Source: Caldisphaera lagunensis DSM 15908 | Lineage (GTDB): Archaea > Thermoproteota > Thermoprotei_A > Sulfolobales > Acidilobaceae | Assembly (NCBI RefSeq): GCF_000317795.1 | Contig: NC_019791.1 | Span: forward strand, 1,054,001-1,118,000 | DNA: 64,000 nt | Reading direction: 5' to 3' | Part shown: piece after piece, positions 45,705 through 52,988 of the stretch | How the letters are laid out: every line of letters starts with the position of its first letter | Position numbering within the stretch: the stretch's first letter is position 1 | Position numbers and translations under genes: made by a program | The notes under the pieces: model-generated | Databases searched by the model: none | Told to the model about the DNA's origin: nothing | Seen by the model: the letters and a program-made list of their open reading frames with translations, nothing else

Positions 45705-46886
45705 ATGCAAGAATTAGTTAAAAGGGCTATACCTTTAAGCACAAACCATGCAATTGCTAATGCTGTAAAAGACTTAGATGTTGATGTTATATCAGCATAT
45801 CCAATAACACCTCAAACAACAGTTGTAGAAAAGATATCAGAATTCATAGCAAAAGGAGAACTTGATGCAGAATATATACATGTAGAAAGCGAGCACAGCG
45901 CATTAAGTGCAGCAATATCAGCATCTTTAACTGGAGCAAGAGCATTTACCGCAACGGCAAGCCAAGGATTTGCACTGATGCATGAAATGCTTCACATCGC
46001 CTCCGGATTAAGAGCGCCTGTAGTTATGAGCGTTGCGATGAGATCTTTAAGTGCGCCTATAAGCATATGGAATGATCAAAGCGATTTATTTAATGCAAGA
46101 GATTCAGGATGGATAATAATATTTGCCCATACTGCTCAAGAGGCATATGATACAGTTATACAATCATATAAAATAGCTGAAGATCATAACGTCTTATTAC
46201 CAGTAATGGTTGGATACGATGGATATGTTATGAGCCATACAATAGAACCTGTTATTACAGAAGATAAAGAAAAAGTATTGAAGTTTGCGCCAAAGAAACA
46301 ATACCCATATAAACTTGATCCCGATAAGCCTGTTAGTATAGGTTCCATTACTCCACCAGAATATTATTATGAATTCAAATATCAGCAAGTAAAGGCAATA
46401 AATGGTTCTTTACCAATTATAGAAAAAACAGATGAAGATTTTGGAAAAACATTTGGTAGAAGCTATGGCTTAATGGAATGTTATATGTGCGAAGATGCGG
46501 ATTCATTAATAATGACAAATGCAAGCTATGCATCAACATTAAAGGCATTTTTGCCTGAAATAAGAAAACAGGGCTTAAACGTTGGATTATTGAGGCTAAG
46601 AGTATATAGACCATTCCCATTGCAAAAGTTCATTGAGTATACAAGTGATAAGAAAAATTTGCTAGTTATAGATAGGGCAATAAGTTATGGAGCACCATAC
46701 CAAGGTCCATTAGCAAATGAAATTTCAGGTGCAATGGTAAGATCAGGCTTAAAGCTTAACTTAATAAGCGTTGTAACAGGTATTGGGCAAAGAACTGTTG
46801 AATTCGAAGACTTTTTAGCATTAGCTAGACTTGCGCATGAAGGAAGAAAGCATGAAGAAACAATATTCTATGGGGTGAGAGAATGA
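45705..46886 (+). CDS. porA: 2-oxoacid:ferredoxin oxidoreductase, alpha subunit (PorA)
   Basis: 393 residues. The N-terminal pyrimidine-binding domain has SAYPITPQTTVVEKISEF, and the motif VESEHSALSAAISASLTGARAFTATASQGFALM is typical. It forms the active site with the beta subunit. The start is ATG 45705, 1 nt after porD, with AGGTGG. There are no frame breaks. Pyruvate-type rather than 2-oxoglutarate-type is favoured by the separate alpha and gamma chains and the beta sequence. Confidence 0.95.
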   Translation: MQELVKRAIPLSTNHAIANAVKDLDVDVISAYPITPQTTVVEKISEFIAKGELDAEYIHVESEHSALSAAISASLTGARAFTATASQGFALMHEMLHIASGLRAPVVMSVAMRSLSAPISIWNDQSDLFNARDSGWIIIFAHTAQEAYDTVIQSYKIAEDHNVLLPVMVGYDGYVMSHTIEPVITEDKEKVLKFAPKKQYPYKLDPDKPVSIGSITPPEYYYEFKYQQVKAINGSLPIIEKTDEDFGKTFGRSYGLMECYMCEDADSLIMTNASYASTLKAFLPEIRKQGLNVGLLRLRVYRPFPLQKFIEYTSDKKNLLVIDRAISYGAPYQGPLANEISGAMVRSGLKLNLISVVTGIGQRTVEFEDFLALARLAHEGRKHEETIFYGVRE

Positions 46887-47845
46887 GCGAAAATAAAATT
46901 TTAAGGATAAAAAGCCTTTATGATTTACCTAGAGACGAGCTGTTTATAAGCGGCCATGGTTTATGCCCAGGTTGTACTGCTGGAACAATAATGAGAATGT
47001 TAACAAAAGTAACCGGAAAAGATACAATAATAGTTAATGCAACCGGTTGTGTAGAAGTATCAACAACAAGATATCCATATTCAAATTGGTTAGTTCCATG
47101 GTTCCACTCAGCATTTGAAAATTCTGGGGCATCTGCAAGCGGTATAGCTGCTGCAATAAAAGCAATGAAAAGAAAAGGGTTAATGGATAAAAATAAAGAC
47201 GTTAAAGTTGTTGTAGTAGCAGGAGATGGAGGAACAGTAGATATAGGTTTACAAAGCCTAAGCGGTATGCTAGAAAGAAAAGAACCTGTTATGTATGTTT
47301 TATATGATAACGAAGCATATATGAATACAGGTATTCAAAGGAGTGGTTCAACCCCGCATGGAGCATGGACTACAACAACTCCAGCGGGGAAAGTTTGGAG
47401 AGGTGAATGGAGGGATAAGAAAGATATAGCAGGTATAGCAGCTGCACATCATATTCCTTATGTTGCAACAGCAAACCCAGCTTATCCAATGGATATGATA
47501 AATAAGTTTGCTAGAGGACTTGAGGTATTAAATGAAGGGCCATCATTTATACAAGTTTTAATGGCATGCACAACGGGTTGGCGTTTTGATCCTGCTTTAG
47601 GCATTACTATATCTAGACTAGCAACTGAAACAGGTATATTCCCGCTTTATGAAATAGATCACGATAACTTCAGAGTAACTTTTCCAGTAATGAAGAGAAA
47701 ACCTGTTAAAGAATATTTAAAACTACAGGGAAGATTTGCTCATTTAACTGATGATGAAATAAATGAAATACAGAAATTAGTTGATCAAAAAGTAGAGGCA
47801 ATAAACAAAAGGGCTGGAAAAACAGTTATAGGACCAATTGCCTAA
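46883..47845 (+). CDS. porB: 2-oxoacid:ferredoxin oxidoreductase, beta subunit (PorB)
   Basis: 320 residues. It binds thiamine diphosphate (GDGGTVDIGLQSLSGMLER, with the NEAYMNTG follow-up) and a 4Fe-4S cluster (LCPGCTAGTIMRM and further Cys). The TGIQRSGSTPHGAWTTTTPAG stretch is characteristic of pyruvate-specific beta subunits. ATG 46883 overlaps the porA stop by 4 bp after GGGTGAG. It completes the four-subunit complex in the cytosol. Its 3' end overlaps the convergent nitrilase-like gene by 4 bp. Confidence 0.95.
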   Translation: MSENKILRIKSLYDLPRDELFISGHGLCPGCTAGTIMRMLTKVTGKDTIIVNATGCVEVSTTRYPYSNWLVPWFHSAFENSGASASGIAAAIKAMKRKGLMDKNKDVKVVVVAGDGGTVDIGLQSLSGMLERKEPVMYVLYDNEAYMNTGIQRSGSTPHGAWTTTTPAGKVWRGEWRDKKDIAGIAAAHHIPYVATANPAYPMDMINKFARGLEVLNEGPSFIQVLMACTTGWRFDPALGITISRLATETGIFPLYEIDHDNFRVTFPVMKRKPVKEYLKLQGRFAHLTDDEINEIQKLVDQKVEAINKRAGKTVIGPIA

Positions 47846-48777
47846 ATTTCGTCCGATTCCTTTTCATTTAGTTCATTTCTTCTACATAAATTTTTTAATA
47901 TCAATTTGCTTATTTCATCATACTGAACAGGTTTTGTGCTCGTATCAACCTCTACTATAATGGGTAAATCTATATCATCATACGATATTATCTTCTCTTT
48001 TACAACACCAATTTCTGGCTCAGAAGTTATGGTTGGCATAAAAGCTACATATCCGCTGTTGTTAACCCCTTCTACAGCCCCACCAACTAATATAACAGGT
48101 AAATCTGTTTCCTTACTTCTTACCGATAGGAAATTATTTATGCTTTCTAAATCTAACGTTAGCATAGATGTCCCGCTTTCACTTTTCATCTTAAAGAATC
48201 TCGATTCATAAGGAAGCATTGAACCTATGATAACGTTTGCCCCAATAAAGCTTAATGCCTTAAAAATCTCTGGATAACCCAGATCTTCATCAGTAAAAAC
48301 GCCTACATATGCGTTTTTCTTCTTTATATTGAAAACTTCAACAGTTTTCCCTGGTGTTAAACCATTTTCTTCTTCACTTCTAGTTATAGCTATCTTTCTA
48401 TATTTTCCAGCCAATTCTCCTAGAGGATTACTCATAAATGTTGTTAAGTAAAGCCTAGGTCCTGCTCTCTCAACTATAGGGCCTGCTATTATATAAATTC
48501 CGAATTCATGGGACCATTTTGATACAATCATGAATGTCTGGTTTTGTTGTATTTCAGATCCATTTAGCCTTTCTGCAAAGTTCTTTAGTATATTTTTTAC
48601 TTTTTGGTTTGGATAATAACCAACAATTGGGCCTGTTAATGGGTAGGCTGGTAAATAAATTAAATCGATATCTTCGTGTTCTATTATCAATCTATTTATT
48701 AGCTCTTCAAGTCTTTTCATGTTAGTTCTTCTTGCCCCTAGTTTTATTCTTGTGTGAATTATTGCCATCTTTAGCAT
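47842..48777 (-). CDS. Nitrilase-superfamily protein lacking the usual catalytic residues
   Basis: 311 residues in a nitrilase/carbon-nitrogen hydrolase fold. The catalytic Glu normally sits in a PE-x-x-x-x-GY stretch; here it reads LPAYPLTGPIVGYY without Glu. The Lys region, AGKYRKIAIT, is kept. The cysteine block, normally C-x-D-x-x-x-PE, is TDEDLGYPEIFKALSFIGANVIIG, with Asp where the Cys should be. So two of the three catalytic residues appear missing, and enzyme activity is unlikely. It converges on porB with 4 bp overlap. ATG 48777 follows GGTG at 5 nt. It may be a structural or regulatory relative. Confidence 0.75.
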   Translation of the reverse strand: MLKMAIIHTRIKLGARRTNMKRLEELINRLIIEHEDIDLIYLPAYPLTGPIVGYYPNQKVKNILKNFAERLNGSEIQQNQTFMIVSKWSHEFGIYIIAGPIVERAGPRLYLTTFMSNPLGELAGKYRKIAITRSEEENGLTPGKTVEVFNIKKKNAYVGVFTDEDLGYPEIFKALSFIGANVIIGSMLPYESRFFKMKSESGTSMLTLDLESINNFLSVRSKETDLPVILVGGAVEGVNNSGYVAFMPTITSEPEIGVVKEKIISYDDIDLPIIVEVDTSTKPVQYDEISKLILKNLCRRNELNEKESDEI

Positions 48778-49182: not shown

Positions 49183-51057
49183 TTATGGTATGCGAGCATG
49201 GAAAACCCAAGGCATCTCGTTTTCAGACCTTTCTAAGTATTTTAAATAGTATTCCTTATTATAACTTCCAGTATAAAAATCAATAGGTATTGGCTTTCCA
49301 TCATAGTTTATTATATAGCTTATAGAATCGCTTAAACCATATAGATAAGAACTTGCCTTTACTTGTTGTGTTTTCTTTATACTATTTACATTTTTATTTA
49401 TTATTAATAGCTCATCCTTTATATCATTATTAATCAATTTCTCCTTTATTTTATTATAAGCTTCTCTTGCCTTGCCTAATAATTCAAAAAATTCCTTTTC
49501 GTTTTTAGCATTTTTTAAAATTTCTAATGCATTTAATTCAGCTTCTTTTATAATATCTGGCACATTTTTTCTTATAGCATTTATTCCCTTTATTTTTAAA
49601 GATCCATCATCCCTTAAACCATAATATTTGCCAGGAGAACCTAAACCTTTTTGTGTATATGGAAAAACAAGCCATATGAATTTATCTTCCAACCTTAGTT
49701 TAATCTTTATTTCATTGCTTATCATTTCGCTAAGCTCTTCAATGCTTACCTTAGGCTTTTCAGGTATTATAAATAGGCTATCAACAATAAAATTTATTAC
49801 CTTGTACCCATTTTTTATGGAAATTTCGTAAGATTTCTTCATAATTTCTCTAGCTATGGAGGTAACAGTTTCATAAGCAGATATACTACCAAATAGGCTA
49901 TTCCTATAACCCAAATAACCAAAACCAGCTACCAAAATCCATTTTATTGCATCAAACCTTTCCTTATACATTGGATTATTTTTATATGGTCTAAGAATTT
50001 CCCTCCTTTTTATTAAATTTCTTAAAACTGCTGGAATTATACCCTCTTTATCTAAGCAAACCTTATGTCCTATACCCTTTATTTCATAATTTAAACAATT
50101 AGGGTTGTTAACAGTTTCTGCAGATAAGTTATTTAAAACTATTATGTTTGGATATAGGCTAGAAAAATCAAGTTGGTAAACATTAAAATATATACCTGGT
50201 TTTGGAATAGAAATTGCACCAGCTTTATCAGCTCTTTCCAATTCATATAAGCTCCTCCAAGGTTCAAGCCTCTTAACCTTCTTAATCAAATAAAATCTTC
50301 TCATTGCCTCAAGAATTTCAGCTGAAGTTAATATCTTCCCAATAGAAGAGTTGCTTGCTTGCTTTAAGGTTAAACCAGAAATCCTAGACCATTCTATTAA
50401 GCCATAAATACCTACAAGAGGTTTTTGAATTAAAATAAAATCTTCATTTTCTTTTATCTGATTTAAAGCATTTATATCTGCCATAACAATTTTTATATTC
50501 TCTTTTTTTATTATATCATAAATTTCATTTATGTTATTAATAATAAACTCATTATCATTTGTTTTTATTTTATAATATTTAATATCATACCATGAGGCCT
50601 CTTTTCCATATTTGTTTAATGAAGTTATATATGCATACCTTATTTCTGGCAACTCATATAAAGGACCCTCATCATCTTTTTTATTAAAATGATCATAAAA
50701 ATAACCAGGATTAAGCCCTCTTTCTTTTAGAATTAGATTTAATTCGTTTATATAATTGTTAACACTTATCCCAAGACCTTTTTCCTCTATTTTCCTTATA
50801 AATTCTTTTTTGCCTAGATATCTAATTTTTAATATATTGCTTTCCTTATCATAATATGGCGGTGATAGCCATTTCTCAACATTTATCTCATATATAAAAT
50901 CCAAATTTTCTAGTATTTTTAAAAGCTCATTTAAATTAACAGGTTCAACATATGCTATCCTATAATCTTTAATAATAACTTTTTCTATATTTTTATTTAA
51001 AAAATAAAGTAAAAGCTCACCTTTTTTATATTCAGCGTTTAAAAATAAACCTCCCAT
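49183..51057 (-). CDS. Family-B DNA polymerase of the PolB2 type with degenerate active sites
   Basis: 624 residues, shorter than PolB1 (about 880). Motif A is intact, DFSSLYPNI. Motif B reads KWILVAGFGYLGY; the usual K-x3-NS-x-YG has lost NS. Motif C, normally YGDTDS, reads NFIVDSLFI and keeps only the second Asp. Exonuclease motifs are not found: no DIE in the region of ISLNKYG-type strands and no N-x-x-x-F-D. This is the pattern of the archaeal PolB2 family, reported as inactivated in part but in Sulfolobales linked to DNA damage. The C-terminus has a conserved thumb-like stretch. Its start (TTG/ATG 51057) follows the 72-residue gene directly. Confidence 0.85.
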   Translation of the reverse strand: MGGLFLNAEYKKGELLLYFLNKNIEKVIIKDYRIAYVEPVNLNELLKILENLDFIYEINVEKWLSPPYYDKESNILKIRYLGKKEFIRKIEEKGLGISVNNYINELNLILKERGLNPGYFYDHFNKKDDEGPLYELPEIRYAYITSLNKYGKEASWYDIKYYKIKTNDNEFIINNINEIYDIIKKENIKIVMADINALNQIKENEDFILIQKPLVGIYGLIEWSRISGLTLKQASNSSIGKILTSAEILEAMRRFYLIKKVKRLEPWRSLYELERADKAGAISIPKPGIYFNVYQLDFSSLYPNIIVLNNLSAETVNNPNCLNYEIKGIGHKVCLDKEGIIPAVLRNLIKRREILRPYKNNPMYKERFDAIKWILVAGFGYLGYRNSLFGSISAYETVTSIAREIMKKSYEISIKNGYKVINFIVDSLFIIPEKPKVSIEELSEMISNEIKIKLRLEDKFIWLVFPYTQKGLGSPGKYYGLRDDGSLKIKGINAIRKNVPDIIKEAELNALEILKNAKNEKEFFELLGKAREAYNKIKEKLINNDIKDELLIINKNVNSIKKTQQVKASSYLYGLSDSISYIINYDGKPIPIDFYTGSYNKEYYLKYLERSENEMPWVFHARIP

Positions 51058-51275
51058 TAACTACACCTTTTAGCTATGTACAAGATTAAACCAAGAACTA
51101 TAGGCTCTAATGGATCGCTTAACGTTTCAAATTGGTAATAACTAACTAAATCATATGCCTCCTTTATTATTTCTTTTGCTTTATCCTTATCTTCATTTGT
51201 ATATTCTAGTATTTTTAATAACCTATTTATTTCATCTTCTATAACCATTCTTGTAGAAGGTGTTGTCCTACCCAT
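51057..51275 (-). CDS. Small helical protein encoded between RecA-like gene and PolB2 gene
   Basis: 72 residues. Predicted all-helical: MVIEDEINRLLKILEYTNED, then KAKEIIKEAYDLVSYYQFE, then PIVLGLILYIAKRC. The last helix (EPIVLGLILYIA) is reminiscent of a cyclin-fold helix as in TFB, but at this length that is weak. It overlaps the end of the RecA-like gene by 37 bp, and its stop touches the PolB2 start, so all three are translated from one mRNA. ATG 51275 has GGGGAT about 8 nt upstream; ATG 51248 would cut the overlap to 10 bp. Function unknown; a partner or clamp for PolB2 is plausible. Confidence 0.65.
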   Translation of the reverse strand: MGRTTPSTRMVIEDEINRLLKILEYTNEDKDKAKEIIKEAYDLVSYYQFETLSDPLEPIVLGLILYIAKRCS

Positions 51276-51886
51276 AATCTCTCATCCCCTAATTCTTTAT
51301 AAGATATATAAGAAATCCTGGGAGTTAGCTTAGCATAATGCTTTATTAAAATCGCTTCTATCCCATTTCTATAAGGTAAAACCTTAATTATTGCATGCAA
51401 TATGTGGTGATGAAACTTACCTCCTTCAGGCAAAAACTTTCCAAGAGATGTTTCCCTATTAAATATTATAGCAGTTATACCTTTAGATGAAATTTCTTTT
51501 ATAGCCCCAGTTATAGGAGTTAATAAATTATAGTTTAATGGGCTTACTGGAGAGAAAAGATAAGGATCTATTAAAATTAAATTGTTTATCCCCTCAATAC
51601 TTTTTATCAATTCTGGTATATCATATCTTCTAAAAGCCCTTGAAATATAGATATTATCAAAATTGCCTCCAAATATTTTTATCATTTTCCTTACAAAATA
51701 TGGATCTAAATTTCCAAAATCTTGTATATAAACTACCCCTACTTTTCCATATCTAGTTAAAGAAGCCATGGTCATATGGGATATAGATAAGGCTATTCTC
51801 CAATCCCCATATATTTCTATTATATTGCCTTTATTTATAGGGTTAATTAAAGTATCTAAAGCTTGTATACCAGTTAGGCTATACAT
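51239..51886 (-). CDS. RecA/RadA-like protein without P-loop, first gene of the PolB2 operon
   Basis: About 215 residues. The fold matches the RecA core: the region GNIIEIYGDWRIALSISHM aligns with the Walker A position, but G-x4-GK[ST] is gone (no GKT). The Walker B-like ILIDPYLFS is kept, as is the GKVGVVYIQDFGNLDPYFVRKM strand-helix and a C-terminal GGKFHHHILHAIIKVLPYRNG. So it is likely a non-ATPase paralogue, like RadA paralogues that act in complexes. ATG 51886 fits a start 39 nt into the longest frame (51925). It leads the operon (RecA-like, small protein, PolB2). A role in damage tolerance or recombination is inferred from context. Confidence 0.75.
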   Translation of the reverse strand: MYSLTGIQALDTLINPINKGNIIEIYGDWRIALSISHMTMASLTRYGKVGVVYIQDFGNLDPYFVRKMIKIFGGNFDNIYISRAFRRYDIPELIKSIEGINNLILIDPYLFSPVSPLNYNLLTPITGAIKEISSKGITAIIFNRETSLGKFLPEGGKFHHHILHAIIKVLPYRNGIEAILIKHYAKLTPRISYISYKELGDERLWVGQHLLQEWL

Positions 51887-51980
51887 GTCTAAGCCCAATT
51901 TGAAGTAAATAAGAGAATTAATCAAAATTCCATTATAATTAATAATTAGGGTGAGAGATAAATGAAAGTATTTTAAAATT

Positions 51981-52988
51981 TCATATCAACTTTTCTGGCC
52001 TTCTAATATTTAGAACATCTTTATTAACTAAAGTTAACGGAATTTCTCCATTAAAAAACATCTCTAAGTTTTTATATACCAAATCTGCCATCTTAGCCCT
52101 TGTTTCATGCGTTGCACTCCCAATATGGGGTAACAAAACAACGTTGTCTAAAGTAGTTATTGGATGTCTAGGATCTAATGGTTCTGATGGATAAACGTCT
52201 AGGCCTGCTCCTGCAATCCAACCTTCCTTTAATGCTTTATATAACGCGTCTAAATCAACTACCTTTCCTCTAGCAGTGTTTATTAAAATTGAAGTCTTCT
52301 TCATAAGCCTTAGAAGGTTTTCATTTACCATATTTGCAGTTTCCTTTGTTAAAGGAACATGAAGAGATACTATATCACTTTCCTTAAATAATGTATTCAT
52401 ATCAACATATTTGGCCCCTAATTCTTCCATTTCCTTATGTCTGCTCCTGCTGCTATATAATATATTCATATCAAAACCCTTAGCCCTTTTTGCAACTGCA
52501 TAACCTATTCTACCTCCTCCAACAATACCAATAGTTTTACCATAAACATCATAACCTAGCATTAAAGTTGGATGCCATGCAGAACCAAGCGTATACCATT
52601 TACCGCTCCTGACAAATTTATCAGATTCTACAATTCTCCTAGAAACAGATAAAATTAATGCCCATGCAACATCTGCTGTTGCATCAGTTAAGACATCTGG
52701 GGTATTTGTTACATATACACCATGTTTTGTTGCGCACTCCAAATCAACATTATCAAATCCAACAGCATATTGAGCTATAATTTTAAGATTTGGAGATAAC
52801 TTCTCAATTATTTCACATGTTATTTTATCTTCCAGAGTTGTTACTAAAGCATCTACTCCTTTGGCATTATTAATTATATCTTCTTTACTAGGAGGAGTAT
52901 ATTTAGGCCATATAGTTACATCAAACATCTTTTTAATTTTTTCAGTTGCAGGAAAAGGAATTTCTCTAGTCATAAATAGCTTATACAT
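51981..52988 (-). CDS. D-2-hydroxyacid dehydrogenase (glyoxylate/hydroxypyruvate reductase type)
   Basis: 335 residues. NAD-binding loop GIVGGGRIGYAVAKRAKG, catalytic Arg in INTARGKVVDLDAL, Glu in DVYPSEPLD and His in LPHIGSATHETRAKM. It reduces glyoxylate or hydroxypyruvate, or oxidises D-glycerate, using NAD(P)H in the cytosol. ATG 52988 follows GGTGAG at 5 nt. It precedes the PolB2 operon on the same strand at about 55 bp but is unrelated in function; the operon probably has its own promoter. Divergent from the membrane regulator gene at 53058. Confidence 0.93.
   Translation of the reverse strand: MYKLFMTREIPFPATEKIKKMFDVTIWPKYTPPSKEDIINNAKGVDALVTTLEDKITCEIIEKLSPNLKIIAQYAVGFDNVDLECATKHGVYVTNTPDVLTDATADVAWALILSVSRRIVESDKFVRSGKWYTLGSAWHPTLMLGYDVYGKTIGIVGGGRIGYAVAKRAKGFDMNILYSSRSRHKEMEELGAKYVDMNTLFKESDIVSLHVPLTKETANMVNENLLRLMKKTSILINTARGKVVDLDALYKALKEGWIAGAGLDVYPSEPLDPRHPITTLDNVVLLPHIGSATHETRAKMADLVYKNLEMFFNGEIPLTLVNKDVLNIRRPEKLI

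Follow-up and report, generated by a model that had tools for sequence, protein, structure and literature searches.

A probable PolB2 mutasome operon in Caldisphaera lagunensis with a two-frame iRadA/PPB2 overlap and a conserved damage-response-type promoter element

The polB2 locus and its distribution

The window, i.e. the whole 64,000-nucleotide stretch of Caldisphaera lagunensis DSM 15908 DNA analysed here, belongs to one contig of 1,546,846 bp. On its minus strand it carries three adjacent and co-directional genes, the arrangement by which a PolB2 mutasome is recognised:

51239 to 51886, minus strand: iRadA, a RadA/RAD51-fold protein of 215 aa lacking the N-terminal domain and Walker A (profile, models and alignment)
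51057 to 51275, minus strand: PPB2 (arCOG07300), 72 aa, with an N-terminal MGRT arm
49183 to 51057, minus strand: PolB2 (Dpo2), a B-family translesion polymerase of 624 aa (sequence and model matches, invariant residues)

The iRadA and PPB2 genes overlap by 37 bp (51239–51275) and those of PPB2 and PolB2 by 1 bp (51057, within TAATG), and an ORF check reproduced exactly the three genes, coordinates and overlaps given in an earlier, sequence-only reading of this DNA. The length of iRadA is counted from an ATG; an alternative TTG start at 51925 also lies in an open frame and was rejected. The ATG was preferred because a stop interrupts the extension in a congener, because homology with other genera starts at approximately the ATG, and because the promoter element at 51953–51969 (see below) would, given the spacing reported in PMC5817253, put the TTG close to where transcription is expected to begin. 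The flanks of the operon are metabolic and include no repair gene, with a glyoxylate/2-hydroxyacid reductase upstream (51981–52988) and a nitrilase-family protein downstream (47842–48777 of the window); at 45705–47845 two adjacent genes resemble, by eye, the alpha and beta subunits of a 2-oxoacid:ferredoxin oxidoreductase.

The first protein had been read as a RecA fold without a P-loop, and profile and model comparisons bear this out. The AlphaFold model of iRadA (pLDDT 91) adopts a RadA/RAD51 fold which matched RAD51-family structures in Foldseek (E 1e-10) and in VIA-align (Z 20–23 over 195–200 residues, rmsd ~2.5 Å; best match Z 22.8 over 198 residues, rmsd 2.5 Å), and a profile of 40 iRadAs matched archaeal RadA with an E-value of 2e-10. 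A PDB search with the single iRadA sequence returned chance matches only, and the RadA relationship therefore required the profile. Walker A is absent from iRadA, and only one of the 40 relatives carries GxxxxGK[TS], where the motif is displaced. PPB2 begins with MGRTTPSTR, of which M1, G2 and R3 are invariant in 40 sequences (M1 by virtue of the start codon), corresponding to the MGRT arm described in PMC11791011. Neither Pfam nor NCBIfam holds a model for PPB2, and since the PDB matches of its profile were for the most part helical proteins, designed or coiled, no claim is made as to its origin.

Conservation of the gene set was assessed across the order in 197 genomes, and PolB2 is encoded by 74 of them. 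The three genes were nearly always adjacent, iRadA being present in 72/74 and PPB2 in 68/74 of these genomes, while only one of the 123 PolB2-negative genomes (itself 63% complete) carried iRadA or PPB2. The association of the three genes is thus far beyond chance. The exceptions comprise contig edges (two), one incomplete genome and four genomes with a relocated PPB2. The last are the only complete genomes in which PolB2 and PPB2 are non-adjacent; they belong to a single Sulfolobaceae genus, and absence of PPB2 was rejected as a profile search located the gene elsewhere in each genome. Of four congeners of C. lagunensis, two retain the whole set and two (G148 and G190) lack all three genes. 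From the co-occurrence and the congener pattern it follows that the three genes are retained or lost together in related genomes; retention of PolB2 without the other two genes, which the sequence-only reading had named as counter-evidence to a common system, was not the pattern found. The set was also detected in Bathyarchaeota, Thermoplasmata, Methanomethylicota and bacteria.

Some loci displayed irregularities. In two of them (L102, 4700–5930, and L105, 4770–6080) approximately 1.2–1.3 kb separates iRadA from PPB2, suggestive of an insertion event within the operon, and the intervening segment apparently holds, by eye, an opposite-strand gene resembling an archaeal ATPase/DUF234 (longer in L105). 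PolB2 is split into two frames in G103 (L137, 5092–6889) and iRadA is split in G125 (L166, 6477–6946), through either sequencing error or real disruption.

The overlap between iRadA and PPB2

The overlap and its surroundings contain the following features:

51239 to 51275, minus strand: 37-nt two-frame overlap of the iRadA 3' end and the PPB2 5' end
51242 to 51265, minus strand: PCNA-box-like motif QHLLQEWL at the iRadA C-terminus, directly before the stop
51283 to 51289, minus strand: purine-rich Shine-Dalgarno-like stretch GGGGATG ahead of the PPB2 ATG, inside iRadA

PPB2 starts inside iRadA in 25 operons from 13 genera and five families, with overlaps of 37 nt (17 operons), 40 nt (two) or 49 nt (six) when GTG and TTG starts of PPB2 are counted; the 37-nt overlap was also seen in archaea from beyond the order set (L183–L185, L195, L196 and L208). 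A Shine-Dalgarno-like tetramer precedes the PPB2 start in all 25 overlapping operons, against a background of 24%. In the iRadA frame the overlap typically ends W-x-x-Q-x-x-L-x-E-[WY]-L, the PPB2 arm being encoded in the other frame. The pattern QxxLxx[FWY]L was observed in 21/25 operons, the remaining four being without the strict PCNA-box pattern, where 1.0/25 was expected under a null of random PPB2 codons for the same amino acids at local codon usage. With one operon per genus the pattern was present in 11/13 (P ~4e-19, a value that treats related genera as more independent than they are).

Codon choice was compared between genera in 23 operons (one motif-less genus being left out), with the rest of PPB2 serving as the control for relatedness. 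Identical codons were used at shared residues with a frequency of 0.61 in PPB2 codons 2–12 versus 0.41 in codons 13–66, the corresponding values for operons without the overlap being 0.32 and 0.40. Additionally, the codon for PPB2 Arg9 is AGA in 23/23 operons, as compared to 16/107 of the downstream Arg codons. Taken together, the excess of the tail pattern, the codon identity, the fixed Arg9 codon and the Shine-Dalgarno-like tetramers indicate that the overlap segment is constrained in both frames, with reduced synonymous variation.

As regards the role of the iRadA tail, clamp motifs have been reported in iRadA C-termini and modelled on PCNA (PMC11791011). Such a motif is a feature of only part of the family; the QHLLQEWL pattern found here is present and conserved, and its fit to QxxLxx[WF]L suggests that the tail may bind PCNA. 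The 803-aa PolB of the same genome also points to this, as its C-terminus (...QPSLFDFLGDSR) takes the form QPSLFDFL and fits the same QxxLxx[WF]L pattern. We lean, by a modest degree of confidence, towards a reading in which the same 37 nt encode both the PPB2 arm that reaches the active site and a predicted clamp-docking iRadA tail, translation of PPB2 starting from a ribosome site internal to iRadA. Given the shared 37 nt and the internal start, the two subunits would under this reading be inseparable and not independently changeable.

Instead of a PCNA box, the conserved tail may represent a helix that is structural or contacts the polymerase, which we consider doubtful although it is the strongest of the competing explanations. 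Many iRadAs from operons without the overlap lack the tail Gln and still retain the LLxW core (GLxxW in Sulfolobaceae), and the motif ends in an aromatic residue followed by Leu, not by a second aromatic. Furthermore, the tail was modelled with low confidence (blocks 65–66), so that no docking can be read from the model. The use of QxxLxx[WF]L by the genome's own PolB and the clamp motifs described in PMC11791011 argue against such a helix. A second alternative, that the overlap reflects ordinary operon compaction and that the tail is read-through passively following the PPB2 arm, is improbable: archaeal operons often contain short overlaps, and one ancestral overlap may underlie all of the overlapping operons, but passive read-through is at odds with the 21 occurrences of the tail pattern where one was expected, with the codon identity raised only in overlapping operons, with the Arg9 codon bias and with the LLxW core of iRadAs that have no overlap. 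The overlap, which is nowhere mentioned in the main text of PMC11791011, predicts functional importance for the tail of iRadA as well as for the PPB2 arm.

The promoter element

A candidate damage-response element lies ahead of iRadA:

51953 to 51969, minus strand: ACTTTC-N6-CTCTC, combining the Orc1-2 DDRE hexamer ANTTTC with CTCTC at a fixed spacing, the sole match in the window
51964 to 51969, minus strand: the ACTTTC hexamer of this element, of the form that marks the DDRE regulon
51964 to 51977: TTTAAAATACTTTC, overlapping the element

Orc1-2, a regulator of the response to DNA damage, binds the hexamer ANTTTC (PMC9738581), which UV-inducible promoters require (PMC5817253). The single ACTTTC-N6-CTCTC site in the window compares with an expectation of 0.15, and the element is conserved in both congeners that bear the operon. 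At operon heads a spacing of exactly 6 was found in 25/77 cases, each other spacing from 0 to 15 accounting for 0–3. By genus, ANTTTC-N6-CTCTC was present at the operon head in 16/33, and about half of the genera have no recognisable element; 500 dinucleotide shuffles gave 0.1 genera on average and never more than 2. The element precedes whichever operon gene is first, and it stands before both arms of divergent operons (L167, and L142 and L145 by hexamer). Moreover, all four relocated PPB2 genes (L325–L328) carry ANTTTC-N6-CTCTC, or its CCCTC version, ~50 bp before their start. ACTTTC-N6-CTCTC is also present at the polB2 head of L152.

A genome-wide regulon defined by ANTTTC-N6-CTCTC was rejected, as the genome of C. 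lagunensis contains 6 sites compared to 5 for the reversed pattern; the extended pattern thus marks the operon only through its conservation. The related pattern TTTAAA-N(0-3)-ATANTTTC yielded 15 sites versus 6 in the control, few of which precede genes, among them the operon and an ORC2-type gene (G000:C1:644147-645388; L287, L295), TTTAAA..ATACTTTC being found before both. This gene, whose best PDB match is A. pernix ORC2 (E 2e-111), is by similarity a candidate counterpart of Orc1-2. TTTAAAGAATACTTTC lies ~87 bp ahead of its start, and closer to the gene there is an inverted copy resembling ACTTTC. Among relatives, the hexamer is mildly enriched in the promoters of ORC2-type genes (13/30 versus 6.3 expected with simple shuffling).

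In S. islandicus the adjacent genes SiRe_0614, SiRe_0615 and SiRe_0616 are upregulated 21-, 26- and 22-fold, respectively, with NQO (PMC10470591), and by Sulfolobaceae gene order we infer that they correspond to PPB2, PolB2 and iRadA. Table 1 of that study labels SiRe_0614 and SiRe_0615 as Dpo2N and Dpo2C; judging from the gene order, SiRe_0614 is more likely to be PPB2 than an N-terminal part of the polymerase. The conserved element predicts Orc1-2-type damage control of PolB2 well beyond Sulfolobaceae, and predicts that PPB2 remains in the regulon after moving away from polB2.

Proposed function and known systems

PolB2 matches archaeal family-B polymerases both by sequence and by model (pLDDT 92), and two of its motifs bear on its function:

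49777 to 49788, minus strand: motif C, IVDS, with the first Asp lost and the second kept (alignment of 43)
50224 to 50229, minus strand: D277-K278, the D(K/R) motif preceding motif A (D277 invariant in 43; role from PMC11791011)

The D(K/R) motif is said to contact the PPB2 arm (PMC11791011). Asp297 (motif A), Lys372 (motif B) and Asp426 (the second Asp of motif C) are invariant in 43 PolB2 sequences, and in all 43 the first motif C Asp is replaced by Ile, Leu or Met; these two observations indicate that the loss at motif C is shared and partial rather than the decay of one copy. No profile or sequence match fell N-terminal of ~residue 200, from which the exonuclease site is judged to be absent. 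In S. islandicus the orthologous enzyme shows activity in vitro and is solely responsible for damage-targeted mutagenesis (PMC7390963, PMC8764526); the former study also names the C. lagunensis Dpo2. The sequence-only reading was thus right that PolB2 lacks exonuclease motifs and has a damaged motif C, whereas its description of a dead enzyme does not hold. A purely structural or regulatory complex, devoid of polymerase activity and made up of a small protein and two enzymes that are both catalytically dead, is most improbable, for the loss of Walker A from iRadA and of the exonuclease motifs and first motif C Asp from PolB2 is countered by the three invariant catalytic residues and by the S. 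islandicus orthologue, which shares the motif C change, extends primers (PMC8764526) and is required for targeted mutagenesis (PMC7390963).

We consider it very probable that the locus is a PolB2 mutasome operon which works as follows, the functional steps in Caldisphaera being drawn from relatives. Gene order, folds, invariant residues, the element and the two-frame constraint are observed; activity, induction and the complex model come from the literature on relatives. Upon DNA damage, a regulator of the Orc1-2 type would act on ANTTTC and switch on one mRNA, from which iRadA, a PPB2 trimer and PolB2 would be produced. iRadA would dock on PolB2, taking the place of a RadA filament neighbour, and one PPB2 N-terminal arm would extend toward the polymerase active site. 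The iRadA tail QHLLQEWL may tether the complex to the PCNA clamp, the tether in this lineage lying on iRadA. Devoid of proofreading, PolB2 would then extend mismatched or distorted primer ends past lesions (cf. PMC8764526), giving rise to mutations (cf. PMC7390963).

The suggestion that the RecA-like and small proteins belong with PolB2, probably in a complex, is supported by the order-wide synteny, by published AlphaFold modelling of the five-chain complex (PMC11791011) and by the joint induction of the genes in S. islandicus (PMC10470591). The system cannot, however, be called under-described, as had been proposed, since its operon was described in 2013–2014 (Makarova et al. 2014, PMC4104785) and the heteropentameric iRadA-PPB2(3)-PolB2 mutasome was modelled in 2025 (Timinskas et al. 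2025, PMC11791011); together with the activity of the S. islandicus orthologue and the induction of its operon by NQO, this removes both the 'dead polymerase' and the 'under-described' labels. The novelty lies in two details, the overlap read in two frames and the extended element seen across the order, for which no description was found in open-licence full texts; as only such texts were covered, an earlier description elsewhere is possible.

Compared to the published PolB2 mutasome (PMC11791011, PMC4104785), the locus presents no difference in kind. Both share the gene content, the iRadA-PPB2-PolB2 order, an inactive RadA fold without N-terminal domain, the MGRT arm, the D(K/R) motif, an IxD motif C and, by sequence pattern, a putative clamp-type iRadA motif; the heteropentamer is taken from PMC11791011, the models made for the locus itself being of single chains. 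To this the present analysis adds the overlap that combines a clamp-type tail with the arm, and the extended element outside Sulfolobaceae. The S. islandicus Dpo2 operon has orthologous genes, and a similar promoter element is found in the Sulfolobaceae loci examined; it differs in its order (PPB2-PolB2-iRadA), in having no iRadA/PPB2 overlap and in an iRadA tail without Gln. Its 21–26-fold induction by NQO (PMC10470591) is observed, whereas induction of the present locus is predicted from relatives.

The PolB2 system, already published, is of interest as a counterpart in archaea to the mutasomes of bacteria. E. coli Pol V (UmuD'2C-RecA) is alike in plan, with a polymerase, a RecA-family partner and a small subunit whose arm lies near the active site (PMC11791011), but employs a Y-family polymerase, an active RecA and an unrelated small subunit; a Pol V-type mutasome was rejected for this locus, its polymerase being B-family and PPB2 matching no UmuD model. 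The ImuA-ImuB-DnaE2 mutasome similarly comprises a RecA-like subunit, inactive in most groups, within a damage-induced mutagenic complex (PMC12926913), and differs in its C-family polymerase, its inactive Y-family protein and its other partners.
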